Part shown: piece after piece, positions 1 through 64,000 of the stretch
Numbering within the stretch: position 1 is the stretch's first letter
How the letters are laid out: the number at the start of each line of letters is the position of its first letter
Source of the DNA: Phycisphaerales bacterium
GTDB lineage: Bacteria; Planctomycetota; Phycisphaerae; Tepidisphaerales; Tepidisphaeraceae
Length of the DNA stretch: 64,000 bases
Direction: 5' to 3'
Assembly: GCA_020847375.1 (NCBI GenBank)
Contig: JADLCB010000003.1
Span: 186,001-250,000, forward strand
The notes under the pieces: model-generated
Seen by the model: only the letters and a program-made list of their open reading frames with translations
The model's database searches: none
What the model was told of the DNA's origin: nothing
Program-made: the position numbers and the translations under genes

Positions 1-226
1 CATGCAGACTGCCGATCAAGAGCAACGGCGACATGACCATGCCATAAGCGCCGTAAATTTCTTTGGTTAAATAGGCGGCAAAAATGACATCACGCCCGAA
101 ATTGCCGATGCTGACCACCGCCTGATCGGTAATCGCCCATCCACCGCGGCGCAGGATTGCGCTCAACAAGCCGCGCACGCGCGACGGTGACGGATCATCT
201 TGCAAAGGTGGGACCAAATCAGTCAT
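1..226 (-). CDS. Oligosaccharide flippase-like membrane protein, N-terminal fragment
   Basis: This is the first 75 codons of a minus-strand gene cut off by the left window edge. The ATG is at 226-224. The peptide opens with a polar stretch (MTDLVPPLQDDPSPSRVRG), followed by a segment reading WAITDQAVVSIGNFGRDVI and then AAYLTKEIYGAYGMV. That layout matches the first membrane helix region of polysaccharide export flippases of the MATE/MviN-like superfamily (Wzx-type), where 'ADQ..VS..NF' is typical. Such proteins flip lipid-linked sugars across the inner membrane. The gene is transcribed away from dnaN, so the origin-like DNA lies between the two. The assignment rests on a short N-terminus only, so the family is likely but the exact role is unknown. 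Confidence 0.55.
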   Translation of the reverse strand, partial: MTDLVPPLQDDPSPSRVRGLLSAILRRGGWAITDQAVVSIGNFGRDVIFAAYLTKEIYGAYGMVMSPLLLIGSLH

Positions 227-632
227 TGTGGTATGGTGCTGTCAGGATGGTAAAACATCGTAATACTGCTCATCGGTCGAATCGCGCACGAACATACTGC
301 CTAAATTATTTGTGGATGATCGGTGGAAAATCATGCGCATAAACCGTGGGTTGATCCTTGGTAATGCGTGCATCAGTTGTCGTCAGAACCGCTTGGCTAT
401 CAACACGTGTTCCGTATAAGTCGTGGACAAGTTGATTTCGCCTGTCAGGGGCTGTTCCTGAATCTGGGAGGTTTTCGCCACTCCCGGTCATCTTAACAGC
501 ACCACCAGGGTTAAAATCGCTGGTTATCGATATTAATCGCTCCAGACAATGAACAACTTATCCACCGTGATAGTCTGATAATAAATAATCTAAGTTATTA
601 TTGTATCTAGCTTTACCGATCTTTATTTGAAA

Positions 633-641
633 TTATCCACA
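633..641 (+). promoter_or_regulatory. Perfect DnaA box TTATCCACA
   Basis: This is an exact match to the consensus DnaA binding site. It lies 123 bases before the dnaN start and 12 bases before the CTA triplet run. Confidence 0.7.
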
Positions 642-653
642 ATACGACAATCA

Positions 654-668
654 CTACTACTACTACTA
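654..668 (+). repeat. Five tandem CTA triplets (possible DnaA-trio element)
   Basis: There are five uninterrupted CTA repeats, read as 3'-GAT-5' on the other strand. They sit between a DnaA box and an AT-rich run, as in the origin-unwinding DnaA-trio. The function is inferred from position and sequence only. Confidence 0.5.
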
Positions 669-678
669 TCTATTTAAT

Positions 679-706
679 TTGTATCTCCGAACAGTCCCGT
701 TAAAGT
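679..706 (+). promoter_or_regulatory. Possible dnaN promoter
   Basis: TTGTAT (679-684) and TAAAGT (701-706) are separated by 16 bases, about 58 bases before the dnaN ATG. Both hexamers are imperfect, so this is only a candidate. Confidence 0.25.
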
Positions 707-713
707 AACAAAT

Positions 714-727
714 CCCCTTTCGAGGGG
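714..727 (+). other. Stem-loop with TTCG tetraloop in the dnaN leader
   Basis: CCCCT (714-718) and AGGGG (723-727) pair around a TTCG loop, the unusually stable UUCG type in RNA. It ends 36 bases before the dnaN ATG, so it would sit in the dnaN 5' leader. No T-tract follows, so it is not a normal terminator. Confidence 0.4.
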
Positions 728-763
728 GCTGGGAAACAATAACCACAGGGAAAGGGTTTGTAT

Positions 764-1867
764 ATGAAAGTGATCTGCAATCGAGGCGCTTTACTCAACG
801 CGCTGGCTGTCATGGGCAACGCTGTATCGACACGCACACCCAAACCCGCACTACTGTGCGTCAAACTCAGCGCCCAAAATGACCAGTTGACGGTTACAGC
901 CACCGATCTGGAGCTGGCACTGGAAATTTTTGATAACCAGGTTGAAATCAACCAACCGGGTGAATGTCTGCTACCTGTGGACAAATTCTATAGCATCGTC
1001 CGCGAATCGATTGATGACACCATCAGCATCGAAATCGAAAATACCACCGCTCATATCAAGGGGCGCGATTCGCATTTCAAGGTTTTCACCCAGCCGGTTG
1101 ATGAATTTCCCCCAATTCCCGAATTCACCGATAAAGCCGATCTGCAGATCCAGGGTGGGGTACTCAAACGGCTGATCAACCAGACGTTGTTCGCAGCGGC
1201 CAAGGAAAGCTCACGGTACGCCTTTAATGGGGTGCTGGTCAGTGCAGCGGGAAAGAAGGTCACGCTGGTCAGTACCGATGGGCGGCGGCTGGCGCTGGCC
1301 AAGGGAGACCTTGTAACCGCCAGCGACAAAAAAGTGGGTTCGGCCATCATCCCCTGCAAAGCGCTGCAACTGGTGGATAAGCTGATTGACAACGATCAAC
1401 TGGAGGAAGTCGTTTCGATTCAGATTCGTGAAAACCGGGTGAACTTCAAAGTAGGTAACGCCACGCTGACCAGCTCGCTGATCGAGGGGCAGTTTCCTCC
1501 CTATGAAGATGTGATTCCCAAGGATGCTGACAAGAAGATGAGCGCCAATACGGCTGAATTTCTCAGTGCCATCAAACGTGCTGCCCTGCTGAGCACGGAG
1601 GAAAGCAAAGGCGTGCGGATGCAGTTCAGTAAAAATGGGTTGATTTTGACCAGCCGTTCACCCGAAGCAGGTGAAGCAACCATCAACTTCCCGTGCAAAT
1701 TTGAGGGTGATGATGTGGAAATCGGGTTTAATCCCGCCTTTCTGGTTGATACGCTGAAAGTGGTTAACAGCGACGAAATTTCCCTTGAACTTTCAGCAGC
1801 CAATCGACCGGGTCTGGTGAAAAGTGGATCTGATTTTCTCTATGTGATCATGCCGGTGAATCTTTAG
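764..1867 (+). CDS. dnaN: DNA polymerase III beta subunit (sliding clamp)
   Basis: This encodes a 367-residue beta clamp, the usual family length for three repeated domains. The dimeric ring encircles DNA and tethers DNA polymerase III and repair polymerases. The N-terminus MKVICNRGALLNAL, the internal LATDLELAL-like stretch (VTATDLELALEI), FNGVLV and STDGRRLA, and the C-terminus YVIMPVNL are all characteristic. I place the start at the ATG at 764, which has the purine-rich AGGGAAAGGG 8-17 bases before it; an upstream in-frame TTG at 758 would add only two residues. The gene follows the oriC candidate directly and is followed after 19 bases by the dciA-like gene, so the two are probably co-transcribed. 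dnaA, the usual upstream neighbour, is absent. Confidence 0.97.
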   Translation: MKVICNRGALLNALAVMGNAVSTRTPKPALLCVKLSAQNDQLTVTATDLELALEIFDNQVEINQPGECLLPVDKFYSIVRESIDDTISIEIENTTAHIKGRDSHFKVFTQPVDEFPPIPEFTDKADLQIQGGVLKRLINQTLFAAAKESSRYAFNGVLVSAAGKKVTLVSTDGRRLALAKGDLVTASDKKVGSAIIPCKALQLVDKLIDNDQLEEVVSIQIRENRVNFKVGNATLTSSLIEGQFPPYEDVIPKDADKKMSANTAEFLSAIKRAALLSTEESKGVRMQFSKNGLILTSRSPEAGEATINFPCKFEGDDVEIGFNPAFLVDTLKVVNSDEISLELSAANRPGLVKSGSDFLYVIMPVNL

Positions 1868-1886: not shown

Positions 1887-2339
1887 ATGAAACCCCGTAA
1901 ATCCGTTCCAGCCGCCAGCTCATCGCCACCCACCCGTGCGGTGTCAGTGGGTCATCCGCTGCAGAGCATCGAGCGGTTGTGGAACCATAAGCGGGCTGAC
2001 CACCATGATGCGGATCATCTCGGTGAGAATCTGGTCAGTTTCTTCAAACAGTCGGTCAAAAAACGGCAGGGAAAATTCACCGCCATTGCAGGCGCGTGGG
2101 AAAAGCTCGTACCCGAGTTTCTCTGTGATCGCTGCGCCCTGGAGAGTTTTTACCGGGGAACGTTGACAGTGATTGTTGATTCATCGGCGCATTTGTATGA
2201 GCTGAGGCAGCTCCTGCTGGCGGGGGTGGAAGATCAGCTCCGTCTGGCGTGCCGATCATCCGGTCTGCGCAAGGTTACACTTAAACCCGGGCGCTGGTAT
2301 GAAGACCGCGGGAACGGGCGCGTGCTTGATTTTGATTGA
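1887..2339 (+). CDS. DUF721 protein, likely DciA-type helicase-loading factor
   Basis: This 150-residue protein carries a DUF721 domain at about residues 45-140. Visible hallmarks are the amphipathic start LVSFFKQSVKKRQGKF, the W-K-LVP segment (AWEKLVPEFL), the strand GTLTVIVDSSAHLYEL and the end KVTLKPG. DUF721 proteins include DciA, the ancestral factor that assists DnaB helicase loading in bacteria lacking DnaC or DnaI. The residue 1-40 tail is Ser/Pro/His-rich and probably disordered. The gene starts 19 bases after dnaN, matching the dnaN-DUF721 order common in planctomycetes and actinobacteria. Assignment to DUF721 is firm; the helicase-loading role is from family knowledge and gene position. 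Confidence 0.8.
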   Translation: MKPRKSVPAASSSPPTRAVSVGHPLQSIERLWNHKRADHHDADHLGENLVSFFKQSVKKRQGKFTAIAGAWEKLVPEFLCDRCALESFYRGTLTVIVDSSAHLYELRQLLLAGVEDQLRLACRSSGLRKVTLKPGRWYEDRGNGRVLDFD

Positions 2340-4340: not shown

Positions 4341-5048
4341 TTATTTTGTCTTCTGGCCGTAATACGCCCCCGGGCCATGTTTTCGGAAAAAATGCTTGTT
4401 GAGCAGCGGTTGCGGGATGCCGGCCAGTTGCGGATTTAATTGCAGGCTGGCCAGCGCCATCCGGGCGGAAAACTCCAGCACAATCGAATTTTCAATCGCT
4501 GCGGCAATCGATGGCCCCCAGGTAAACGGCGCATGGCTGGCGACCAGCACACCGGGAACCTGGACAGGATCGATGTTGCTTTTTGTGAAAGTCTCAACGA
4601 TCGCCCGGGCGGTGTTCAACTCGTAATCCGTGTCGATTTCTTGTGCAGTTAAGGGACGGGTGACAGGGACAGCCCCATAAAAATTATCCGCGTGGGTTGT
4701 ACCGAAACAGGGGATTGGCTGGTGCGCCTGAGCGAAGCTGGTGGCGCAGGCTGAATGGGTATGAACAACCCCGCTGATGGAAGGGAAGGATTGATACAGG
4801 TGCAGGTGGGTCGGGGTGTCGGATGAGGGGCGGGCGGTTCCTTCGATAATGCGGCCGGAGGCGATTTCCAATACAACAATATCATCGGCGGACAGACGGT
4901 CATAAGGAACACCGCTGGGTTTGATCGCCATGACACCGGCAGCACGGTCGGCGGCACTGGCGTTGCCCCAGGTCAATACCACCAGCCCAGCCTTGACCAG
5001 ATCCAGATTGGCTTGGCAGGCGAGTTGTTTCAGTGCGGCGTAAGACAT
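4341..5048 (-). CDS. araD: L-ribulose-5-phosphate 4-epimerase
   Basis: This 235-residue class II aldolase-fold enzyme converts L-ribulose 5-phosphate to D-xylulose 5-phosphate, the last step of arabinose catabolism. Zinc ligands are seen as His96 and His98 in the HTHS motif and His172 in SHAPF. Asp77 lies in SSDTPTHLHLY, Asp121 in THADNFYG, and the tyrosine pair 229-230 is in the terminal GAYYGQK. These match the catalytic set known for AraD of similar length. It is the last gene of araB-araA-araD, 76 bases after araA. An inverted repeat GCAATGG/CCATTGC lies in that gap and may affect relative expression. Confidence 0.95.
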   Translation of the reverse strand: MSYAALKQLACQANLDLVKAGLVVLTWGNASAADRAAGVMAIKPSGVPYDRLSADDIVVLEIASGRIIEGTARPSSDTPTHLHLYQSFPSISGVVHTHSACATSFAQAHQPIPCFGTTHADNFYGAVPVTRPLTAQEIDTDYELNTARAIVETFTKSNIDPVQVPGVLVASHAPFTWGPSIAAAIENSIVLEFSARMALASLQLNPQLAGIPQPLLNKHFFRKHGPGAYYGQKTK

Positions 5049-5124
5049 TGATAGCGCTCGATTCGTTCAAAAAGGTGGCAATGGTTGGACGTTTGCCATT
5101 GCGCAATTGTTATGACCACGCATT

Positions 5125-6630
5125 TTACAACCCGCGGGCTAGGTGATAATAAATTTCACCAAGGCGCAGATCCTGTAGAAAACGGTTCAATTCGGTCTGC
5201 TGGTCAATGACGACAATTTCAATGTCAGCCATCGTAGCCAAATCGCGCAGGTGCTCGGTGTTGACCGCGTAACTGAAGCTGGTGTGATGGGCACCACCAG
5301 CATGAATCCAGGCAGCACAGGCGGTCTGGAAGTCAGGCCGCGTGCGCCAGACAGCGCGGGCGACAGGCAGCTTGGGCAGAGGAGCTGGTGGAACCACAAC
5401 ATCGATCTCACCGACGATCAGGCGGAAGCGGTTGCCCAGATCGATCAGGGAGGCATTGATCGCCCGACCGGCGGGTGCATCAAAGACCAGACGGGCAGGG
5501 TCAGCCTTTGCACCAATGCCCAGCGGATGAACCTGCAGCGACGGTTGGCCAGCGGCGATCGACGGGCAGATTTCCAACATATGTGCGCCCAAGACCAGAT
5601 GATTGCCCGGCTCGAGATGATAAGTGTAATCTTCCATGAACGAGACACCGCCCTTGAGGTCAGCATCCATCACTTTCATGGCGCGTACCAAGGCAGCGGT
5701 TTTCCAGTCTCCCTCGCCGCCAAAACCGTAACCGTCAGCCATCAGGCGCTGAACCGCCAGGCCCGGCAACTGGGTCAGGCCATGCAGGTCTTCAAAGGTA
5801 TCGGTGAAGGCGCTGAACTGACCCTGTTCCAGAAACGCGCGCAGGCCCAGCTCGATACGCGCCGCCTGGCGTACGCTGGTATGACGGGCGCCCCCTTTGC
5901 GCAAGTCAGCCGCGATGGTGTAGCAATTTTCATATTCGGCAACGAGTTGATCCACCGCTGCATCTGTGACATGGTTGACAAGCGCCACCAGATCGCCCAC
6001 GCCGTAGGTGTTGACGGAAAACCCCAACGCTGCTTCAGCCGAGACCTTGTTGCCTTCAGTGACAGCCACATAGCGCATGTTGTCGCCAAAACGGGCCACT
6101 TTCAGATGTTGAAGCTCATCCCAGCCCCGCGCTGCCCGCATCCAGGTCCCCAGCGACGCCTGCGTTGATGGATCCGACCAGTGCCCCACAACGACCTTGC
6201 GCTGAAGGCGCAAACGGGTGTGCAGAAACCCTGCCTCACGGTCGCCATGTGCGGCTTGGTTGAGGTTCATGAAGTCCATGTCGATATCCGCCCAGGGGAG
6301 ATCGCGGTTGAACTGGGTATGCAGATGCACGAGTGGTTTACGCAAGGCGGTCAGGCCGGCGATCCACATCTTGGCGGGGGAAAAAGTGTGCATCCACACG
6401 ATCAAACCGGCGCAGGTATCCGCTGCACTGGCCTGCTGGCAGAGCTGGCGGATGGCGTCGGGTGTGGTAAGCACGGGTTTGTGAACGATGCGGGCGGGCA
6501 ACTGGCCGCTGGCGTTGAGCGCATCGACAATCTGGCGTGAGTTGACGCCGACCTGTTCGATGGCAGCCGGGCCGTAAAGATGTTGGCTGCCGGTGGCAAA
6601 CCAGAATTCGATCGGGCGAAGATTTTTCAT
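5125..6630 (-). CDS. araA: L-arabinose isomerase
   Basis: This 501-residue enzyme is the normal length of bacterial AraA, which interconverts L-arabinose and L-ribulose with a divalent metal. The manganese-binding residues fall at the E. coli positions: Glu306 (GGEGDWK), Glu333 (SFMEDYTYH) and His350 (VLGAHMLE). The N-terminal [13 protein letters not shown] and the [10 protein letters not shown] segment are also typical. The gene lies 49 bases after araB on the same strand and is followed by araD. The cytoplasmic product should be a homo-oligomer. Confidence 0.97.
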
Positions 6631-6679
6631 GTCTATTTCCTGAAAAAGGTCGGACGGGCTGATTCAGTCAACAACAAAT

Positions 6680-8380
6680 CTATGACTTTTTACTGGCCAG
6701 CGCCGCATCACGGATAATCAGCAGCTCTTTCATCACGTCACTTAGTTGGGCGGTGTGGCCCGCGATACCAAAAGCATCATGCAGGCGCAGGTAGAGCTGG
6801 TACAGTTTTTCATAAATCGCTGCCCGGGCGGGGTCAGGCTGGAAGATGCGCGACTGGACAGCGGTCATCTTCTCGATCGCCTGTTCAAAGCGATCGTAAC
6901 CGCCGGATTGTTGACCGGCGACGACCGCACCAGCCATGGCAGCGCCAAGAGCGCAGGTCTGGGTGCTGCGGGAAATGGCGATGGGACGGTTGGTGACATC
7001 AGCGTAGATTTGCATGGTCAACGGGCTGCGGGCAGCGATGCCGCCGCAGTTGACGATGCGCTGAACCGGCACGTCATATTTTTCCAGTCGTTCGATGATG
7101 ACCCGCGCGCCCATGGCGGTGGCTTCGAGCAACGAGCGGTAGATTTCCGCCGGTGTGCTGGCCAGGGTTAAACCGACGATCAGGCCGGTGAGGCGCTGAT
7201 CGACCAGAACGGTGCGATTGCCGTTCATCCAGTCCAGTGTCAATAAACCACTTTCGCCGGGGGAGAGTTTTTCCGCCCCCGCGGTCAGCGCCTCGTGTGA
7301 AGCGGCGCTAGTGCCGCCGGGCTGGATGGTTTTCACAAACCAGTTGAAAATATCCCCAACCGCCGACTGGCCGGCTTCCAGGCCGAAGTATTCCGGCAGG
7401 ACCGACTCGGGGACAATCCCGCAAAGTCCGGGGATATCCGCCAGTTTCTGTTTCATCGGGCTGACCATGATATCGCAGGTGCTGGTACCGATGATCTTCA
7501 CGAGCGTGCCCGTGCCAATGCCAGCCCCGACAGCGCCCAGATGCGCATCAAACGCGCCGATGGCGATGGGAATACCAGCCGGTAAACCCAGCCGACTCGC
7601 CCATTGGCTGGTCAATCCACCGGCTGATTCAGCAATCGACCAGGCACGATCAGGCAGCGTCTGGCGCACGCGCGCCAGGCGCGGATCGAGTTGCGACAGG
7701 AAATCCACATCGGGATAACCACCCCACTGCTGATTAAAAAAGGCTTTGTGACCGGCAGCACAGATGCTGCGTTTGAGCGCGGCGGGGTTGGTCGAACCGG
7801 TCAGCAGGGCTGGAATCCAGTCGGCCAGTTCGACCCAGGTATAAGCAGCGTCAAATACCTCGGGCGCGACGCGGGCGCAGCGCAGAATCTTGGCCCAGAA
7901 CCATTCTGATGAATAGCGCCCGCCACATTTGGCCAGATAGTGCGGACGATGACGGGCAGCGGTTTGGGTGAGTTGTTCGGCTTCGGCGTGAGAAGTGTGA
8001 TCCTTCCACAACCAGACCATGGCGTGGAGGTTTTTTTGGAATTGTTCATTCAATCCCAGCGGCGTGCCGGTTTGATCGACGGGGATCGGCGTGCTGCCGG
8101 TGGTATCAACGCCGATACCGATCACGCGCGACGCGGAAAAATGTTGATCCTGACTGGCCTGCTGCAAAGCGCCGATGATCGTTTTTTCAATGCCCGTGAC
8201 GTAATCCGCTGGATGCTGGCGCGCCAGATCGGGATCGGCCGAATCCAGCAGTATTCCCGCCTGGCCGTGCTGATATTCCCAGATGGATGAACCCAGCTCG
8301 CGTCCATCGGAGACATCGACCACCAGGGCGCGAACCGAATTCGTTCCAAAATCAAGACCGATGGTGTAGTGACGGGACAT
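6680..8380 (-). CDS. araB: L-ribulokinase
   Basis: This FGGY-family sugar kinase is about 566 residues when started at the ATG at 8380, which has GAGAGG just upstream; a longer frame starts at 8419. It phosphorylates L-ribulose to L-ribulose 5-phosphate. The N-terminal phosphate-binding GLDFGTNSVRALVVDV, the IGVDTTGSTPIPVD strand, the GAFDAHLGAVGAG segment and the C-terminal adenosine motif CGGIAARSPLTMQIYADV are all present. The length and the long insert fit AraB rather than glycerol or xylulose kinases. It heads the araB-araA-araD cluster; the region upstream holds a candidate promoter and inverted repeats, so arabinose-responsive repression is likely. Confidence 0.95.
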   Translation of the reverse strand: MSRHYTIGLDFGTNSVRALVVDVSDGRELGSSIWEYQHGQAGILLDSADPDLARQHPADYVTGIEKTIIGALQQASQDQHFSASRVIGIGVDTTGSTPIPVDQTGTPLGLNEQFQKNLHAMVWLWKDHTSHAEAEQLTQTAARHRPHYLAKCGGRYSSEWFWAKILRCARVAPEVFDAAYTWVELADWIPALLTGSTNPAALKRSICAAGHKAFFNQQWGGYPDVDFLSQLDPRLARVRQTLPDRAWSIAESAGGLTSQWASRLGLPAGIPIAIGAFDAHLGAVGAGIGTGTLVKIIGTSTCDIMVSPMKQKLADIPGLCGIVPESVLPEYFGLEAGQSAVGDIFNWFVKTIQPGGTSAASHEALTAGAEKLSPGESGLLTLDWMNGNRTVLVDQRLTGLIVGLTLASTPAEIYRSLLEATAMGARVIIERLEKYDVPVQRIVNCGGIAARSPLTMQIYADVTNRPIAISRSTQTCALGAAMAGAVVAGQQSGGYDRFEQAIEKMTAVQSRIFQPDPARAAIYEKLYQLYLRLHDAFGIAGHTAQLSDVMKELLIIRDAALASKKS

Positions 8381-8430
8381 GAATAACCTCTCTTTTTTCT
8401 GAAATTGATGCGCACTCAAGCAAGGTGTTT

Positions 8431-53525: not shown

Positions 53526-54311
53526 TCAATCAGGCAACTGTCCATGCACGCGCAGGCCATCATACGCCAGTTGCATATTGGGAGGTAGCTGGCGATTGGT
53601 CTGTTCGTGTCCGACGGCGTGGGCAATGTGCGTGAAGTAGGTCTGGCGGGCATTGATACGGCGGGCAGCTTCAATCGCCTGGGTCAGGGAAAAATGCGTG
53701 CTGTGCGTTTTCCATTGCAGGCCGTCGATGATCAGCACATCCAGATCGTGCAGCAGCGCCCACGACGAATCAGGAATACGATTGACATCCGTGCAGTACG
53801 CGATGGATCCGACGCGGAAACCCAGAATGGGCAGTTCGCCATGAAACAGACGGATGGGTTGCCAGGTGGCGCCGGCCACTGAAAAGTCACCGCTGATGAT
53901 CTGCGGCTGAAGATGGGGGCGATAGACTTTCTGGTCAGGATCAGGGGCGCGAAAAGCGTAATCGAAGCTGCAACGCAGTTTCTCCAGGGTTGGTGCCTCA
54001 GCCCACACATCCAGCGGCCCGCCTCGCAGCGTGTTGAAACGCCGCACATCGTCCAGCCCCATGATATGATCGGCGTGGGCGTGGGTGATCACCACCGCTT
54101 CAATCGCTTCCAGCCCGGTCGCCAGCGATTGCAGGCGCAGCTCGGGGGTGGTGTCCACGAGGACATTTATATTGTGATACGAGAAAACAACAGAACAGCG
54201 CGTGCGCCGGTCATGCGGATCGGCGCTGGTGCACACGGGGCAATGGCATCCGATCATCGGTACGCCGGCGCTGGTGCCTGTTCCAAGAAAAAGCAGTTGC
54301 AGATCAGCCAT
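53526..54311 (-). CDS. PhnP-like metallo-beta-lactamase fold hydrolase
   Basis: This is a 261-residue MBL-fold enzyme. The N-terminal FLGTGTSAGVPMIGCHCPVC followed by an RRTRCS motif is typical of PhnP-like proteins, including the zinc-binding cysteine cluster. The metal-binding HxHxDH motif is THAHADHIMG, and later metal ligands lie in FHGELP, CTDVNRIP and THFSLTQAIEAA. Relatives cleave cyclic phosphodiesters. It lies 28 bases after the small membrane protein gene on the same strand. The substrate is unknown. Confidence 0.88.
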   Translation of the reverse strand: MADLQLLFLGTGTSAGVPMIGCHCPVCTSADPHDRRTRCSVVFSYHNINVLVDTTPELRLQSLATGLEAIEAVVITHAHADHIMGLDDVRRFNTLRGGPLDVWAEAPTLEKLRCSFDYAFRAPDPDQKVYRPHLQPQIISGDFSVAGATWQPIRLFHGELPILGFRVGSIAYCTDVNRIPDSSWALLHDLDVLIIDGLQWKTHSTHFSLTQAIEAARRINARQTYFTHIAHAVGHEQTNRQLPPNMQLAYDGLRVHGQLPD

Positions 54312-54339
54312 GGAAGGAGTTCAGGCTACATCGGTTTCA

Positions 54340-54588
54340 TCAGGACGGAATGACCACGGAGCTGGGCGGCTGGGGTGGCGGCCCGGTTGGGCGCAACCGG
54401 CGCACGTTAAAGACCAACCAGACCATCGCGATCATAAAGACCACGACCACCACGACCATGGTCAGGAGTACGCGCCGGCCGGATACCGTGGGAAAATCGC
54501 GCGCCCGTGGCGCCCCGGCACGGTTTGAAAGATCGAGTTCATTCATCATCAATGGATTATAGGGCTGAGGGCGAATCGGGAACACCAT
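54340..54588 (-). CDS. Small single-pass membrane protein
   Basis: This 82-residue protein has one hydrophobic helix (VLLTMVVVVVVFMIAMVWLVF, residues about 40-60), flanked by a basic stretch and a Pro-rich end. Its ATG overlaps the stop of the preceding reductase gene as TGATG, so translation is probably coupled. Another start is ATG 54546 (second of the MM pair). No family is recognised. It may modulate its neighbours at the membrane. Confidence 0.6.
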   Translation of the reverse strand: MVFPIRPQPYNPLMMNELDLSNRAGAPRARDFPTVSGRRVLLTMVVVVVVFMIAMVWLVFNVRRLRPTGPPPQPPSSVVIPS

Positions 54589-55604
54589 CAGCGCAGGTTG
54601 GAGCTATGGCCGGGGAAAACATTGGCTTTGGGGTTGAGGTAATGGGCGGCGAAATTGACCGCGATCACGGCTTCACCAAATCCCGTGGCGATCAGTTTCA
54701 GTTTGGCTGAATGGGCGGTAATGTCACCGGCGGCGAAAATGCCCGGGCGGCTGGTCTGCATCTGGCTGTCCACCTGAATCTGCCCCCCCTGCATCTCCAG
54801 CCCCCAGTTGGCCAGCGGCCCCAGCGAGTTGATGAAACCAATGTTCACCAGCACCGCATCGACCTCCAGCGTCTGCTCGCTTTTACTACGATTGTCATAA
54901 ATAACAGCGCGTTCAACCCGTGAATTGCCTTCGATGGCGCGCAACTCATGCCACAAATGGATGTTGGTGCTGCCGGCCTTGAGCTGATCAACGCTGGCGG
55001 GGTGGGCGCGAAAACGGTCATTGCGATGGATCAGCCATAGTTTTTGCGTGATCGGTGCCAGAGTGTTGGACCAGTCCACCGCGCTATCCCCCCCACCGAC
55101 GACCAGAACGCGCTGATCGCGAAAAACCGTGGTGTCCGACACGAAGTAGGCCAGCCCCTTGTCTTCAAAGTAATCCGCGCCGGGGATGGAAACTTTGCGC
55201 GGCTGAAAAGCCCCGACACCGGCCGCAATCAGAACCGTGCGCGCCCGGTGCGTACTTTTGGAGGTGCTGACCAGAAAATGACCGGCCGATTCATCACGAT
55301 CCAGACTTTGCACCTGTTCATCGAGACAAACCTGCGGTTTATAGTACATCGCCTGCTCGACAAGCTGTTCGACCAGGTCTTTGGCCAGGATTTTAGGGAA
55401 CCCAGCCACATCGAAAATGTACTTTTCCGGATAAAGTGTACTGAGCTGACCACCGAGCAACGCGAGCGAGTCAACGATCCGCACACTCATGCTGCGCAAG
55501 CCGGCGTAGAAGGCTGCAAATAAGCCGGTTGGCCCCCCACCGATAATCAACAGGTCAACTACGGTGTCATTGTCGATCGACGAATTGTCAGTGTCTGAAT
55601 CCAT
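54588..55604 (-). CDS. Ferredoxin-NADP(+) reductase, thioredoxin-reductase-like type
   Basis: This flavoenzyme of about 338 residues is of the YumC/TrxR-like FNR type. It has an FAD motif LIIGGGPTGLFAAFYAGL, then LLGGQLSTLYPEKYIFDVAGFP (typical of this family), an NADPH motif VLVVGGGDSAVDWSNTL and a terminal FAD contact GIFAAGDITAH. It lacks the CxxC redox pair of real thioredoxin reductases. It transfers electrons between NADPH and ferredoxin. ATG 55604 is used; a GTG two codons earlier is possible. The stop overlaps the next gene's start. Confidence 0.92.
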   Translation of the reverse strand: MDSDTDNSSIDNDTVVDLLIIGGGPTGLFAAFYAGLRSMSVRIVDSLALLGGQLSTLYPEKYIFDVAGFPKILAKDLVEQLVEQAMYYKPQVCLDEQVQSLDRDESAGHFLVSTSKSTHRARTVLIAAGVGAFQPRKVSIPGADYFEDKGLAYFVSDTTVFRDQRVLVVGGGDSAVDWSNTLAPITQKLWLIHRNDRFRAHPASVDQLKAGSTNIHLWHELRAIEGNSRVERAVIYDNRSKSEQTLEVDAVLVNIGFINSLGPLANWGLEMQGGQIQVDSQMQTSRPGIFAAGDITAHSAKLKLIATGFGEAVIAVNFAAHYLNPKANVFPGHSSNLR

Positions 55605-55677
55605 GGTCACTTTGATTTTTGGCAGGCAATTCCGTCTTTTTAAGTTGTAAATAGTGTTTCGTCAATCAATTACGATA

Positions 55678-55737
55678 GTCTGCCAGGTGTCTGACACGCA
55701 TTAAAGCATGTCTGACATGCGTCAGTCGCTGGCAGAC
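55678..55737. repeat. Nested palindromes with two TGTCTGACA sites after the HTH gene
   Basis: Outer arms GTCTGCCAG (55678-55686) and CTGGCAGAC (55729-55737) enclose two perfect palindromes: GTGTCTGACAC (55687-55697) and GCATGTCTGACATGC (55706-55720). The centres of the inner pair are 21 bases apart, two helical turns. The right outer arm lies within the last codons of the HTH gene. Likely a protein-binding cluster. Confidence 0.6.
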
Positions 55738-56420
55738 AGGCTGCTGAGCAGCCGCCCTACCAGGCTGGACTGATTTTGTGTTGGTTGAGTGGTTGGGATA
55801 TTTTCCACAGCGACGCGAACGGGTTCTTTTCGAGCTTTGAGTTCACCTTCTGCCCGGGCTGCTGCCAGACGTGCATCATCGGCTTGCACCCGTAAGTTTT
55901 CAATTTCCGCCTTTTTACTGGCAGCATCACTTTGGATGAGGTTCAGCTCGCGTTGTACGCCGATCACTTCACTCTTGGCTTGGGTCAGTTTCTGGGTTGA
56001 CCAGACACCGATACCAAATAAAGCGATCAAACTCACGCCTACCATACCCCAGGCCGTGCGGGCCATGATCCGCGCCCGACGGGCTTCAGCGGCGGCAGTC
56101 ATGACCGACTGCTGGTATGCCAGTATGGCCAGATCTGTCCGACGCAGACGATCTTCATGCAATTGCAACATGGTATTGTGCATGTCAGGATGAATACTGG
56201 CAGACGAGTGGCTGACAGTCTGGCTGCTGCCTTCAAAAACGTCGGACTCAGCCGATGAAGGTTCGGTCACCACGGGATCAGAAATTTCGACAAAAACTTC
56301 GCGCCGACCGTTTTCCAAGCGCGACTGCACCTGGCCACTGGCCAAGCGACGATGCAAGGTACGAACGGAAATCCCCAGTGTTAATGCAGCTTCTTCTACG
56401 GTCTGCCATGCCTGTGCCAT
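55722..56420 (-). CDS. Membrane-anchored helix-turn-helix protein with coiled coil
   Basis: This is a 232-residue protein. Residues 1-47 are an excisionase/MerR-like HTH (VEEAALTLGISVRTLHRRLASG). A Ser-rich linker follows, then one membrane helix at about 123-141 (AWGMVGVSLIALFGIGVW), a heptad-like coiled coil at about 145-197, and a short tail. AAGGAGG lies 5 bases before the ATG. A TGTCAGACA palindrome sits in the spacer of its candidate promoter and two more lie just after its stop, suggesting self-regulation. Its position directly downstream of parB suggests a link between chromosome-site binding and the membrane. No family name is recognised. Confidence 0.75.
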   Translation of the reverse strand: MAQAWQTVEEAALTLGISVRTLHRRLASGQVQSRLENGRREVFVEISDPVVTEPSSAESDVFEGSSQTVSHSSASIHPDMHNTMLQLHEDRLRRTDLAILAYQQSVMTAAAEARRARIMARTAWGMVGVSLIALFGIGVWSTQKLTQAKSEVIGVQRELNLIQSDAASKKAEIENLRVQADDARLAAARAEGELKARKEPVRVAVENIPTTQPTQNQSSLVGRLLSSLSASD

Positions 56421-56491
56421 GTCTGCCTCCTTGCAGTTGGTCAGTTAGATAAGTTGTCGGCCAGATCCTCTGACCGTCTTGAGTCCGATAA

Positions 56492-56520
56492 AATGTAATG
56501 ACAAGATGTCAGACATTCAA
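56492..56520 (-). promoter_or_regulatory. Promoter of the membrane-HTH gene with palindrome in spacer
   Basis: On the minus strand TTGAAT (56520-56515) and TACATT (56497-56492) are separated by 17 bases. The palindrome ATGTCAGACAT (56506-56516) covers the -35 edge of the spacer, a classic repressor position. It starts 72 bases before the ATG. Confidence 0.5.
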
Positions 56521-56604
56521 GCGCAAATCATTTTTTAATAAAAATTCCATGGCCTGACCTATTTTGATCATCCCGACGACAAGTTAGGTAAATGTTTGAT
56601 GCAA

Positions 56605-56620
56605 TGTTCCACGTGGAACA
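56605..56620. other. parS: parS site downstream of parB
   Basis: This is the perfect 16-base palindrome TGTTCCACGTGGAACA, matching the ParB-binding parS consensus. It lies 32 bases after the parB stop codon. Confidence 0.9.
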
Positions 56621-56651
56621 TGCGCGCGGTTCATTTTGATCCTTTAGAGGA

Positions 56652-57599
56652 TTAATCTTCCAGACGAACACCCAACTGCGTTAGAAGCGTGTCGAACTGT
56701 TCAAGATTACCATAATGGATCACCACGCGGCCGCGCGAATTGCTCCCGCGGTTCACCCGAACCTGTACCCGCATACCCAGTTGACTGGCGATATTCTTCT
56801 CTAAATCCTTCAAATGAGCTGATTCCGCCGGTGGTTGACGGTGGGGGGCGGGTTGAGAATTAAGCAAACGCTCCAGATTACGAACGCTTAATTCCTGGCT
56901 GACCGCCAGTTTCGCCAGTCGTTCCTGTTCAACTGAATCGGCCACTCCGACTAAAACCTTGGCATGACCGACACTCAGTCTGCCATCACGGACAAGCTGA
57001 CGGACAGCCTCAGTTAAGTCAAGTAATCGCAAAAAGTTACTGACGGTGCTGCGATCTTCTCCCAAGCGGCCTGCCAGTTCATTTTGACTTAAGCCCAGCT
57101 TGGTAATTAAAGTTGAGTAGGCATTGGCACGGTCAATGGGGTTCAAATCTTCACGTTGAATATTTTCGATCAATGCCATCTGGGCTTGGGCAATTGCATC
57201 CACTTCCTGCCGGACCAGGGCGGGGATTGTTGCCATACCCGCCAGTCGGGCCGCGCGCAGACGCCGTTCACCGGCGATCAGCTCATACCCGTCAGCCGAC
57301 TGACGGACAACGACTGGCTGAATCAATCCGCTGACCTTCATACTGTCAGCCAACTCCTGCAGAGCAGTTTCATTGAATGACCGACGCGGTTGATGCGGAT
57401 TGGGTTGAATCTGATCAACTCCCACTTCAATGGCGTAAAGACGTTGGGTTTGACTGTCAGCCTGACTGTCGGCGGCAGACGTCTGACCGACATGGCCATC
57501 TGACACGTCCGACGTGTCAGCCGCATCCGTCAGCGAAGTGCTGGAGATTAAACTTGATAACCCGCGACCAAGACGAGGGCGATTAGGTGAACGATCCAT
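56652..57599 (-). CDS. parB: Chromosome-partitioning protein ParB
   Basis: This is a 315-residue ParB/Spo0J. The N-terminal RLGRGLSSLI is the ParA-contacting patch. The CTP-binding core has PNPHQPRRSFN, GERRLRAARLAG and LIENIQREDLNPID, and an HTH follows (GLSQNELAGRLGEDRSTVSNFLRLL). The C-terminal dimer domain ends GVRLED. GGAGG lies 7 bases before the ATG at 57599; a longer frame to 57806 would run through parS and is rejected. parS sites flank the gene. No parA is in the window. The linker region (about residues 20-50) is Asp/Ser-rich, and its DNA contains a 19-base palindrome. Confidence 0.95.
   Translation of the reverse strand: MDRSPNRPRLGRGLSSLISSTSLTDAADTSDVSDGHVGQTSAADSQADSQTQRLYAIEVGVDQIQPNPHQPRRSFNETALQELADSMKVSGLIQPVVVRQSADGYELIAGERRLRAARLAGMATIPALVRQEVDAIAQAQMALIENIQREDLNPIDRANAYSTLITKLGLSQNELAGRLGEDRSTVSNFLRLLDLTEAVRQLVRDGRLSVGHAKVLVGVADSVEQERLAKLAVSQELSVRNLERLLNSQPAPHRQPPAESAHLKDLEKNIASQLGMRVQVRVNRGSNSRGRVVIHYGNLEQFDTLLTQLGVRLED
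57501..57519. repeat. 19-base palindrome inside the parB linker
   Basis: TGACACGTCCGACGTGTCA is a perfect palindrome in the codons for the Asp/Ser-rich ParB linker. It belongs to a run rich in GTC and GAC. The encoded linker is not conserved, so a DNA-level role is possible. Confidence 0.45.
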
Positions 57600-57989
57600 A
57601 AAATACCTCCGCAGTCTTATCTGCCCACTGCAATGTTCCACGTGGAACATTGCACCAGACGAGCTAATTATCCAAAAAAAGCGTTCTGACTCAAATTTGT
57701 AGGTATCAATCGGACTAGGTTCAGCGCTGCTCGAGGCAGCCAGGCATCGGCAAAATAGCCGCGAGGCGAGAGGGCGGTGGTGGGGGGCCAGCAAATATGA
57801 AATCAATCGCTAACGTGAATTAGCCCAACCCATACGCGCGGTCAATTGGACCTCCCTTTGAGGAAGACACGCGAGCTGGTTATAAGTTAGGGAAATGTAT
57901 GGGTCTAGTTTAGAATGGATAACTGGTTATAATTCTGCACCTTGCAGATCGGCACGCACGGTGCTGCCGGTCTTCATCTGGAAAGACTC
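57600..57989. promoter_or_regulatory. Divergent region between parB and nuoD
   Basis: This 390-base gene-free stretch contains one parS site and a direct repeat CTGGTTATAA at 57876-57885 and 57923-57932. A TATAAT (57928-57933) lies 57 bases before the nuoD ATG. No good -35 is seen. The rest shows nothing clear. Confidence 0.45.
57634..57649. other. parS: parS site upstream of parB
   Basis: This is a second copy of TGTTCCACGTGGAACA, 35 bases before the parB ATG; the palindrome extends four further bases on each side. Confidence 0.92.
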
Positions 57990-59264
57990 ATGGCTTATAC
58001 ACTTACACCCGCCGAGCCGGAACAATTTGACGCGCAATCAACCCATGGCGATTCGGATAATCTCTGGACGCTGAACTTCGGCCCGCAGCACCCGGCGACC
58101 CACACCACCTTGCGCATTGTCCTGGAGCTCGATGGCGAGCGCATCGTCAAGTGCCTGCCGCACATTGGCTACCTGCACTCGGGTTTTGAGAAGCTGGGTG
58201 AAAATCTTAATTACAATCAATATGTCACCATTGTTGACCGGATGGATTATTCCGCGCCGATTTATAATGAACTGGCGTGGCACGGGGCGGCTGAAAAATT
58301 GATGGGCATCGAGCTGACGCCGCGCTGCAAGGTGTTGCGCACCATCGCCGGTGAACTGGGGCGCATCCAGTCGCACTTGCTGTGCATCGCAGCAGCCGGA
58401 CTCGACCTGGGCGCACTGACCGCGTTTCTCTACGGCTTTAACGAACGCGAAGTGATTTACGACATTGTTGAATACATGAGCGGCCAGCGCTTTCACACCA
58501 GTTGGACGCGCGTCGGCGGTTTGAACATGGATCTGCCCGATGAGGAAGTCTTTGTCCGCATGGTCAAGCGTTTCATCAACGAGCAGTTGCCGCGCGGCAT
58601 TGAGGACATTGAAAAACTGCTGAATCGCAATCGTATTTTCGTGGACCGCACCAAGGGTATCGGCATCATCAGCCGCGAAGATGCCATCGCCTGGTCGCTA
58701 TCAGGGCCGATGGCGCGGGCATCGGGCGTGGCGCGCGATATTCGCAAGGATGAACCGTATCTCTGTTTTGCGGACAACTGGGACAACCAGGGTTCGCCGG
58801 CGGTTAATTTCAAAGTGCCGATCATGACCACCGGCGATGTGTATGCCCGTTACCTCGTGCGCCTGGAGGAGGTTCGTCAGAGCATCCATATTATTCGTCA
58901 GCTCATCGACAACATCCCCGGCGGGGCGGTCAACGTCAGCCCCGAAGGCAAGGCTGTGCTGCCGCCCAAGTCGCAGGTCTATGGTTCCATCGAAGGGCTG
59001 ATTCAGCACTTTGAAATCATCATGACCAACCGTGGTTTCATTCCACCGCGCGGCGAAGTTTATAACTGTATCGAAACCGCCAACGGTGAGCTGGGTTATT
59101 ATATTGTCAGCGACGGCGGCAATGTTCCCTGGCGGGCGCGCACGCGGCCGTGCATTTATATCAACTATCAGGTCTTCCCTAAATTAGTCGAAGGCCATAT
59201 GGTTTCAGACGTGGTGGCCATTCTGGGCAGTGTCAACGTGATTGCGGCGGAGTTGGATCGTTAA
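57990..59264 (+). CDS. nuoD: NADH-quinone oxidoreductase subunit D
   Basis: This 424-residue 49-kDa subunit of complex I helps form the quinone-binding cavity in the peripheral arm. Typical segments are NFGPQHPATHTTLRIVLELDGE, PHIGYLHSGFEKLGENLNY, DRMDYSAPIYNELAW, GELGRIQSHLL, DEPYLCFADNWDNQ-like, and the C-terminal GEVYNCIETANGELGYYIVSD. The start ATG 57990 has GGAAAG upstream; a longer frame from 57942 lacks support. nuoE follows after 148 bases, but no other nuo genes are here, so the operon is split. Confidence 0.96.
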   Translation: MAYTLTPAEPEQFDAQSTHGDSDNLWTLNFGPQHPATHTTLRIVLELDGERIVKCLPHIGYLHSGFEKLGENLNYNQYVTIVDRMDYSAPIYNELAWHGAAEKLMGIELTPRCKVLRTIAGELGRIQSHLLCIAAAGLDLGALTAFLYGFNEREVIYDIVEYMSGQRFHTSWTRVGGLNMDLPDEEVFVRMVKRFINEQLPRGIEDIEKLLNRNRIFVDRTKGIGIISREDAIAWSLSGPMARASGVARDIRKDEPYLCFADNWDNQGSPAVNFKVPIMTTGDVYARYLVRLEEVRQSIHIIRQLIDNIPGGAVNVSPEGKAVLPPKSQVYGSIEGLIQHFEIIMTNRGFIPPRGEVYNCIETANGELGYYIVSDGGNVPWRARTRPCIYINYQVFPKLVEGHMVSDVVAILGSVNVIAAELDR

Positions 59265-59412
59265 CAGAATTGATCGTCGCCCGGCGGTGGCCAACGTGAC
59301 GCGAATACCGACAGGTCAATTGAAATTGCCCCAGCCGATGGCAGGGCGGCATTGAAATTTGAAATCAATTTTCGCTTCGTAAAAATTTTTCCCTTTCACC
59401 AGCGACAGACTT

Positions 59413-59994
59413 ATGGCTTGGATTGCTGAAAATCGTCGTGACCCGCAGGTCAAAACTTCGGATACCCCTTACCTCACCGATGCGCTCAAAGCCGTTTTGC
59501 GCGACCGGTATTTCCCGCGCTATCCAACCAAGCGGGCTGTGCTCCTGCCGGCGCTGCATCTGATTCAGCACACGTACGACTGGATTCCCACCCAGGCGCT
59601 GCAGGAAGTGGCGGAGTTTCTGGAGATCGCGCCGGCTGAGGCGCTGGATACCGCGACGTTTTACGAGGAATATTGGCTTAAACCCAAGGGTAAGTATCTG
59701 ATTGGTGTCTGTCGTTCGCTGGCCTGCGAGTTGTGCCAGTCTGCCAAGCTGACCGACACTGTCCGCCGCAAGTTGGGAATTGAGGTCGGGCAGACCACGA
59801 CTGACGGCCGCTTCACGCTGATCGAAATGGAATGTCTCGGTTCGTGCGGTTCAGCACCGGTGGCTTTGACCAACGAAGTGCTTCAGGAAAATCTCACCCC
59901 CGAAAAGCTCGAAAAGTTGATCGATTCATTGCCCGCCGACCCGCACGACTTCAAAGACCCGGGCATCACCTGGCCGGAAGATGACAAGCACTGA
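59413..59994 (+). CDS. nuoE: NADH-quinone oxidoreductase subunit E
   Basis: This is a 193-residue thioredoxin-like 2Fe-2S subunit of complex I. The four cluster cysteines are visible as CRSLAC (C-x4-C) and CLGSC (C-x3-C). The N-terminal helical part contains LPALHLIQHTYDWIPTQALQ and the EALDTATFYEEYW motif. It accepts electrons next to NuoF. The start is ATG 59413; no clear ribosome site is seen. It follows nuoD and precedes a small ORF, with no nuoF or nuoG next to it. Confidence 0.95.
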   Translation: MAWIAENRRDPQVKTSDTPYLTDALKAVLRDRYFPRYPTKRAVLLPALHLIQHTYDWIPTQALQEVAEFLEIAPAEALDTATFYEEYWLKPKGKYLIGVCRSLACELCQSAKLTDTVRRKLGIEVGQTTTDGRFTLIEMECLGSCGSAPVALTNEVLQENLTPEKLEKLIDSLPADPHDFKDPGITWPEDDKH

Positions 59995-60012
59995 CTGGCC
60001 GATCAGTAGTCG

Positions 60013-60276
60013 ATGACCAAACGGGATGATGCATCATCCAGCTTCGCCCGCTGGCTTGGCAGACAAGTCGGACACATCCGTTGCGCCATCCGCCAACACG
60101 TCGGCGAACCAGCCCAAACCATCTACCGCCACCAGACGGTTCAGCAACATGCTGCCCCGCACGATCCTGATTTGATTCTGCGCCGAACCATCACCGATGA
60201 AGTGCTTTGCCGGTCAAAGCCGCCATCGGCGACAAATTCGTGTCATGACGGCCAAAAGACTCGGTCGGCAGGGTAG
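60013..60276 (+). CDS. Small uncharacterised ORF after nuoE
   Basis: This 87-residue ORF starts 18 bases after nuoE. Its sequence ARWLGRQVGHIRCAIR followed by PDLILRRTITDEVL looks structured. I recall similar short proteins beside nuo genes in related bacteria, but this is memory only. The tail (CRSKPPSATNSC onward) looks less ordered. The ribosome site is weak. The rest of the gap to 60365 holds nothing clear. Confidence 0.45.
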   Translation: MTKRDDASSSFARWLGRQVGHIRCAIRQHVGEPAQTIYRHQTVQQHAAPHDPDLILRRTITDEVLCRSKPPSATNSCHDGQKTRSAG

Positions 60277-60365
60277 TCTCCCCGTGTATTGTTCCGCGCC
60301 ATCCGTCAGCACAACATCAACAACGGCGTTGATTTGATATTCGTGCCCCAGCACACGAGGGCAAA

Positions 60366-61670
60366 CTACTCATGTCGCAACGCTTCGATGGGGTTCATGC
60401 GCGCCGCCAGAATCGCAGGATAAAGCCCGAAGACAATTCCGATCATGGCGCTGATGATGAACGAAAGCAGGACGCTCCACATCGCGATGCTGGTGGGGTA
60501 CTCATCCGTGCTGAACGCGCGCACCACGTACGGCAGCACCTTGGCAAAGACAACACCCAGACCCACACCAATCAAACCACCCGCCAGTGAAATCACCGTG
60601 GTCTCGATCAGAAACTGCAGCGTAATGTGGCGCTGCTTGGCGCCCAACGCCCGACGGATACCGATTTCGCGCGTGCGCTCGGTCACACTGGCCAGCATGA
60701 TGTTCATGATTCCGATTCCGCCCACCAACAGCGAAAGACCAGCAATGAAACCCATCACAAAATTAAATATCCGCTGCGTGCGCTCGGCTGAACGCAGAAT
60801 CGAGATCGGGGCTTTGATCTCGTAATCCAGAATCGGGTGCATCTCGGCGATGCGACTTTGCACATTGGCCGCTACATGCTCCACCTTGTCCATGCTGCTG
60901 GCTTGCAACCAGATTTCGCTCACCTCGATCACCTTGCGTTCCATTGATCCGCTCTGGCGGCGAACAATCGTGTCGCTGAAAATCTGCCGCGCCACCGACA
61001 ACGGAAAATAAATGTCCTTGTCCAGATCGCGGTTGATCATCGCAGCCCCTTCGCCGCGCAGCCCGCTGGGATAGAGCACGCCAATCACCTCCAGAATCAC
61101 CAGCCCCGTTGAGGGCGCACCGACTTCAATCGTGCGTCCCAGCGGATCGTCGTAGGGGAAAAGTTGCGCTGCCACGGCTGAACCGATGACGCAGACCGGT
61201 GCCGCGCGGTCATAGTCAACCTGGGTGAATTGCCGCCCCCGCGCCAGTTCCAGGTTGATCACTTCAAATGCCTGCGGTGTCGTACCGATCGCCTCGGCAT
61301 TGGCGCGGACATCCTTGCGAACCACTTTTTGTTCCGTCAGGCGCAGCGGCACGATGCGCTGTACATCGGGAACCAGCGCTTCCAGTCGGGCCAGATCGGT
61401 TCGCGTCAATCCATAACGCAGTTCGCGTGTCGTGGCCTGCGAAGTGTCCTGACTTTCCGGCGGGCGGGCTGACCGAACCAGAATGTTCGTTGCGCCCAGT
61501 TCCTCCAACTGCTGCAGCGCCGCTTTTTTACTGCCTTCGCCAATGGCGACCATCGTGATCACCGCAGCCACGCCGATGATGATCCCCAGCGCCGTCAGCA
61601 GCGAACGCATTTTATGACGCCGCAGATTCCGCAGCCCCAGCGCGAATGTTTCCAGTAAAAAAATAAACAT
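60366..61670 (-). CDS. MacB/FtsX-type ABC permease
   Basis: This is a 434-residue protein. An N-terminal helix follows RNLRRHKMRSLLTALGIIIGVAAVITMVAIG, then comes a large periplasmic MacB-like core domain (about residues 45-290), then three helices (FVMGFIAGLSLLVGGIGIMNIM onward, ending PAILAARMNPIEALRHE). ERTREIGIRRALGAKQ is the typical coupling segment. Such mechanotransmitters work with a separate ATPase and often a periplasmic adaptor. Neither gene is within the window, although a partner may lie elsewhere. It is transcribed toward nuoE. Confidence 0.93.
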   Translation of the reverse strand: MFIFLLETFALGLRNLRRHKMRSLLTALGIIIGVAAVITMVAIGEGSKKAALQQLEELGATNILVRSARPPESQDTSQATTRELRYGLTRTDLARLEALVPDVQRIVPLRLTEQKVVRKDVRANAEAIGTTPQAFEVINLELARGRQFTQVDYDRAAPVCVIGSAVAAQLFPYDDPLGRTIEVGAPSTGLVILEVIGVLYPSGLRGEGAAMINRDLDKDIYFPLSVARQIFSDTIVRRQSGSMERKVIEVSEIWLQASSMDKVEHVAANVQSRIAEMHPILDYEIKAPISILRSAERTQRIFNFVMGFIAGLSLLVGGIGIMNIMLASVTERTREIGIRRALGAKQRHITLQFLIETTVISLAGGLIGVGLGVVFAKVLPYVVRAFSTDEYPTSIAMWSVLLSFIISAMIGIVFGLYPAILAARMNPIEALRHE

Positions 61671-61719
61671 CAGCTCGTGCTATTGTAGGTCAATACTTTT
61701 CGCATCGTCGAAACAAAAA

Positions 61720-63948: not shown

Positions 63949-64000
63949 TACCGCCCGCCCGGCAGCACCCGTGCCATCACCCTTGTCACGCGGTACGAAT

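Follow-up and report, generated by a model that had tools for sequence, protein, structure and literature searches.

The window analysed here is a 64-kb stretch (C3:186001-250000) of the 501-kb contig C3, part of a 3.02-Mb source genome split into 31 contigs. Near its start, the replication genes dnaN and dciA adjoin a candidate chromosomal origin (oriC). The dnaN gene, encoding the DNA polymerase III beta clamp (TIGR00663, 8e-88), is 63-70% identical to its counterparts in four named relatives, which are Phycisphaerales, Tepidisphaeraceae and Planctomycetota MAGs, and the first-pass annotation had rightly placed the DNA in a planctomycete. It had also remarked that dnaA is not adjacent; the source genome carries two dnaA genes, on contigs C6 and C15, and neither sits beside the site. 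The divergent neighbour, which it had called a flippase gene, encodes a membrane-protein-like product of 431 aa (C3:184931-186226). The divergent orientation and a weak SpoVB/flippase match (SpoVB model, 2.3e-5) stand, but the match lies far under the model cut-off and a Pfam search of the protein returned no match. Farther into the window, on the minus strand, are a phytase-like protein (PF13449, 3073-4320), whose C-terminal end VPEPASLLL... resembles a PEP-CTERM sorting signal, and a sugar gene cluster (4341-8419) with a class II aldolase, an L-arabinose isomerase and an FGGY carbohydrate kinase. The position of dciA, a candidate helicase operator (PF05258, 7e-08), near dnaN matches the replication-operon context reported in Planctomycetes and other phyla (PMC5109545). 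The features of the locus are as follows, BUS denoting the unwinding element composed of a DnaA box and DnaA-trios.

1-226, minus strand: start of the divergent neighbour gene
311-319, minus strand: near-consensus DnaA box TCATCCACA, one mismatch, without a fixed place in relatives
322-330, minus strand: DnaA-box-like TTTTCCACC, pattern match
422-430, minus strand: distal DnaA box TTGTCCACG in inverted orientation, at -211 relative to the BUS box and 136 bp upstream of the middle box
558-566, plus strand: middle DnaA box TTATCCACC, located at exactly -75 relative to the BUS box
573-582, plus strand: extra conserved element GTCTGATAAT (family consensus GTCCGATAAT, reverse complement ATTATCGGAC)
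578-678, no strand: lowest-stability 100-bp stretch of the 64-kb window, nearest-neighbour sum 109.0
591-615, plus strand: TAAGT...CTTTA, a TAAG / ACTTA consensus pair between the boxes
633-641, plus strand: BUS DnaA box, perfect TTATCCACA, read directly
642-653, plus strand: 12-bp spacer ATACGACAATCA, read directly
654-668, plus strand: five CTA triplets CTACTACTACTACTA, equal to five 3'-GAT-5' DnaA-trios on the minus strand, read directly
764-1867, plus strand: dnaN, ATG at 764
976-984, minus strand: DnaA-box-like TTGTCCACA within dnaN, pattern match
1372-1380, minus strand: DnaA-box-like TTATCCACC within dnaN, pattern match
1887-2339, plus strand: dciA, adjoining dnaN

The perfect box, the 12 bases after it, the five CTA triplets and the T/A-rich run next to dnaN had been noticed in the first-pass annotation, and the bases are confirmed; the T/A-rich run extends to about 690. 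The DNA at the site is easily melted: in the 64-kb window the next lowest 100 bp has a stability sum of 124.1 and the mean is 150.4. The window's top-scoring inverted box match is located at -322 from the BUS box, not at the conserved -211 site. On visual inspection, family f5 of the class shows the TAAG / ACTTA pair as well.

A single TTATCCACA was rejected as evidence of an origin, since it occurs 21 times in the genome; in the 64-kb window, TTWTCCACA is seen four times against 0.95 expected. The combined pattern, TT[AT]TCCACA followed within 8-16 bp by at least three CTA triplets, has a single occurrence on the 501-kb contig and none in 20 first-order Markov copies of it. Runs of four or more CTA likewise number one on the contig and none in the copies. 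The box plus trios is not a product of chance. Four DnaA-box sites are gathered within 500 bp here, and other separate places on the contig hold at most two.

Within the order, dnaN was located in 24 of 26 genomes, and 21 non-redundant origin regions were aligned. They display a common geometry: an inverted box, 135-136 bp, a second box, 75 bp, the BUS box, about 12 bp and the trios. The middle box lies at -75 in 19 of the 21 origins and at -76 in one, and the best inverted box match falls at -210 to -212 in 15. Spacings of 75 and 211 bp equal about 7.1 and 20.1 helical turns, by arithmetic at 10.5 bp per turn. When the 21 origins are anchored on the BUS box and compared pairwise without gaps, identity is about 0.25 in flanking DNA and peaks at the elements alone, reaching 0.43 for the inverted box, 0.53-0.56 for the middle box and GTCCGATAAT, 0.68 for the BUS box and 0.54 for the trios. 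Two origin models were derived, R1 from all 21 sequences and R2 from the 20 relatives with the window excluded. Against the 3.02-Mb source genome, the sole R2 match, even at E <= 10, is this site (E = 1.9e-18). R1 at E <= 1 matches 23 of the 26 order genomes, 22 near full length and one partially (G002); 21 of the 22 are training sequences, and the untrained one, G003, scores E = 2e-13. By the listed coordinates, the best R1 matches in the order all lie before dnaN; four additional matches are weak (E 0.04 to 0.54), and G018 has dnaN and no R1 match. The conservation of box and triplets in relatives, proposed in the first-pass annotation as a check, is thus borne out by the sole R2 match and by the near-full-length R1 matches in 22 of 26 order genomes.

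GC skew, computed along contig C3, switches at the site. A local minimum of the cumulative skew lies at C3:187,151, about 0.5 kb from the BUS box, with a sign change from -0.062 to +0.021 over 40 kb and from -0.079 to +0.032 over 180 kb. The absolute minimum of the contig is found at 287.8 kb (287,776), 101 kb from the site, because the 240-287 kb interval returns to negative skew. The segment C3:240000-287000 (window 54000-64000 and beyond) has a skew sign opposite to its surroundings; our guess is that an inversion of this segment would account for the second minimum. A second origin near 287.8 kb was considered and rejected, since a box cluster and an R2 match are both absent there. Long stretches on both sides of dnaN were compared in five relatives, of which two have a clear sign change. 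The skew around dnaN passes from -0.13 to +0.11 in G012 and, mildly, from -0.026 to +0.018 in G001; it is near zero before dnaN in G009 and G025 and negative on both sides in G008, and on the upstream side of dnaN in G004, the one side covered, it is +0.017. The complete 7.19-Mb genome G005 was sampled in 40 stretches of 20 kb, or about 11% of its length: dnaN, at 3.67 Mb, does not coincide with a clear minimum, and the cumulative curve of the sample is lowest near 2.7 Mb. For the skew check named in the first-pass annotation, the site thus has a local minimum with a sign change, but the contig-wide minimum lies elsewhere and the relatives are mixed.

Beyond the order, matches to the origin models are encountered in several gene settings. 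R1 at E <= 0.1 matches 104 of 198 genomes of the class, 81 of them outside the order, and at least 20 of these 81 matches adjoin dnaN. At E <= 1e-3, 34 genomes outside the order are matched; in at least 12 the match adjoins dnaN, and in 10 further ones dnaN was not among the coordinates listed or was not found. The rest of these 34 lie at other places, and a weak match is therefore not necessarily an origin. R2 at E <= 1e-3 matches 22 of 294 genomes of the phylum; besides the window's own locus, tblastn places dnaA and/or dnaN no more than about 1.5 kb away at 14 of 19 fetched loci, and neither gene that close at the other five (four from family f4 and one from f13). The order dnaA1-oriC-dnaN is present on a single contig in G039, the match in G188 lies just past dnaA1 with dnaN at another place, and dnaA and dnaN flank the match at seven phylum loci (L267, L268, L270, L274-L277), with both nearby at L266. 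In eight f5 genomes the match is about 590-740 bp past the dnaN stop; G133 has a gene in the dciA position between dnaN and the match, and the gene in that place in G143 matches dciA at 4.7e-6. In the f5 loci L217-L222 (genus g71), the trio region after the BUS box is CGATGATGATG-like, not CTACTACTA, which represents a different triplet type or phase. Because related lineages keep dnaA-oriC-dnaN or dnaA-oriC, the absence of dnaA at the window is read as rearrangement, and, most simply, an ancestral dnaA-oriC-dnaN arrangement would have been split differently by lineage.

With the unique R2 match, the box cluster, the conservation and geometry of the elements, the local skew switch and the low duplex stability, together with the DnaA1 residues described below, the region at about 300-700 very probably serves this Phycisphaerae bacterium as its chromosomal oriC and contains a DnaA-trio (BUS) unwinding element, as the first-pass annotation had proposed. 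The region might instead be a mere dnaN promoter with DnaA-regulated transcription, and the true origin could be at another place such as the 287.8-kb skew minimum. DnaA boxes are also found in promoters, they are seen here upstream of dnaA2, and the absolute skew minimum of the contig does fall at 287,776. Against this, the 280-300 kb interval holds four scattered sites and no box cluster, the genome contains no second R2 site, the origin model also matches the dnaA-dnaN interval in other lineages, and a possible inversion would explain the second minimum; we regard the promoter explanation as very unlikely.

The CTA run could also be a chance microsatellite beside an ordinary DnaA box. The perfect five-fold CTA is confined to the window, and the trios are degenerate in relatives: at least three consecutive NTN triplets are present in 13 of the 21 origins, window included, and just one or two in the other eight, which would fit such an accident. 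Against it, trio-like sequence recurs 10-18 bp past the BUS box in relatives, in register, with an invariant A at position 109, and coincidence is left with next to no credibility.

The predicted oriC resembles a system known from other bacteria. BUS elements are found in 1755 of 2070 predicted origins, defined by a box with three or more trios no farther than 16 bp away, with a spacer peak of 10-13 bp (PMC8287927). The site, with a 12-bp spacer and five trios, falls within this definition; under the strict consecutive rule 13 of the 21 origins do, this one among them. Shared with Bacillus subtilis are the box, the 10-13-bp spacer, the 3'-GAT-5' trios by T/A-rich DNA and the DnaA domain III residues. 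The BUS of B. subtilis has a tandem box pair, whereas here there is one BUS box and the next box is 75 bp away; tandem boxes occur in 57% of published BUS cases and are not a required feature, because single-box BUS elements are also described (PMC8287927). The string 'planctomyc' is absent from the main text of that source. A dnaN-adjacent oriC is reported for cyanobacteria (DoriC 10.0, PMC6323995), with which the present site shares the position beside dnaN but differs in phylum, in its fixed three-box geometry and in carrying GTCCGATAAT. The classical dnaA-oriC-dnaN interval is matched by the model in other Planctomycetota, whereas dnaA1 of the source genome lies on a separate contig. No planctomycete oriC of this kind, and no planctomycete DnaA pair, was found in a literature search covering titles, the starts of abstracts and few subscription papers. 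The opening signal is already known from other bacteria, and the added conserved element GTCCGATAAT is extra.

The two DnaA proteins of the source genome, DnaA1 (471 aa, C6) and DnaA2 (509 aa, C15), score 473 and 404 bits against TIGR00362 (cut-off 343.9); these full-length paralog loci are C6:12025-12507 (L001) and C15:84309-84782 (L002). Both types are present in 21 of 26 order genomes, with one type in the other five, and two or three DnaA matches occur in 179 of 198 class genomes by hand count of the table. Aligned to the B. subtilis DnaA chain 8btg (9e-108), DnaA1 carries I and V at the positions of Ile190 and Ile193 and R at that of the arginine finger Arg264, and so possesses the ssDNA-binding residue and arginine finger expected of a BUS DnaA. 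Its helix is canonical (PRQ...GGRDHTT). All 22 DnaA2 proteins examined in the order carry KRNHSTVISACRR, with ARS or PRS replacing PRQ, in a segment that we take to be the DNA-recognition helix. In DnaA2 of the source genome, Leu occupies the Ile190 and Ile193 places and the arginine finger is kept.

According to the proposed mechanism, the perfect box at 633-641 would be bound by DnaA (most likely DnaA1, the canonical paralog), which would be steered over the 12-bp spacer onto the five minus-strand trios. A DnaA-ATP filament would then stretch the trio strand and melt the T/A-rich DNA in the direction of dnaN. The two upstream boxes, set at near-whole helical turns, may hold more DnaA and aid complex assembly. 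Helicase loading would follow, probably aided by DciA encoded just after dnaN.

The element GTCCGATAAT is present within two mismatches between the middle and BUS boxes in 16 of 21 origins. Its reverse complement contains TTATC, as the DnaA box does, and the element has three mismatches to TTATCCACA. The element is common to oriC and to upstream regions of dnaA2, for example L095, L197, L199 and L201. At one mismatch or fewer, TTATCGGAC occurs upstream of dnaA2 in 16 of 22 cases, all 23 sites on the same strand, upstream of dnaA1 in 0 of 23, and in 37 of 600 random 450-bp background windows; 300 shuffled 9-mers reach at best 13 of 22 upstream of dnaA2 (mean 1.7), and these locus counts are non-independent because the loci are related. 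The variant TTATCGGAT precedes slightly more dnaA2 genes (18 of 22), yet it is also found at 3 of 23 dnaA1 genes. The source genome's own dnaA2 upstream region has no GTCCGATAAT-type match. Across the order, a GTCCGATAAT-plus-TGTTG pattern matches at the origin and also elsewhere, and GTCCGATAAT is not visible by eye in 21 origin regions outside the order. A class-level comparison of DnaA2 with the presence of GTCCGATAAT is uninformative, because two or three DnaA matches are the rule (179 of 198 genomes) and the element is unseen in those 21 regions.

The element may be a DnaA2-specific site, a lead rather than a result. On this basis the origin might serve two initiators, DnaA1 using the TTATCCACA boxes and trios, DnaA2 reading GTCCGATAAT in oriC and before its own gene. 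The DNA-recognition helix of DnaA2 differs in a fixed way, with KRNHSTV for GRDHTTV, and the element keeps TTATC and has its second half changed. Such a division of labour is conceivable and rather improbable. We lean towards GTCCGATAAT being bound weakly by DnaA1 or recognised by some other regulator, which on present evidence is more likely than a DnaA2-specific site: ordinary DnaA boxes flank the element in several dnaA2 upstream regions, and low-affinity, poorly matching DnaA sites occur in model origins. The recurrence of the element at dnaA2, with 0 of 23 at dnaA1, speaks against this preferred reading.

In conclusion, the locus gives a planctomycete lineage that is largely uncultured a well-delimited, conserved predicted origin, whose fixed box spacing is testable. 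Among the loci examined, one origin element lies beside dnaN, beside dnaA or between them, depending on the lineage, which explains the 'missing' dnaA. The class-wide DnaA pair and the common GTCCGATAAT offer a concrete, cheap test of initiation divided between two DnaA paralogs; were the two-initiator reading true, it would mean a paralog-based control of initiation.
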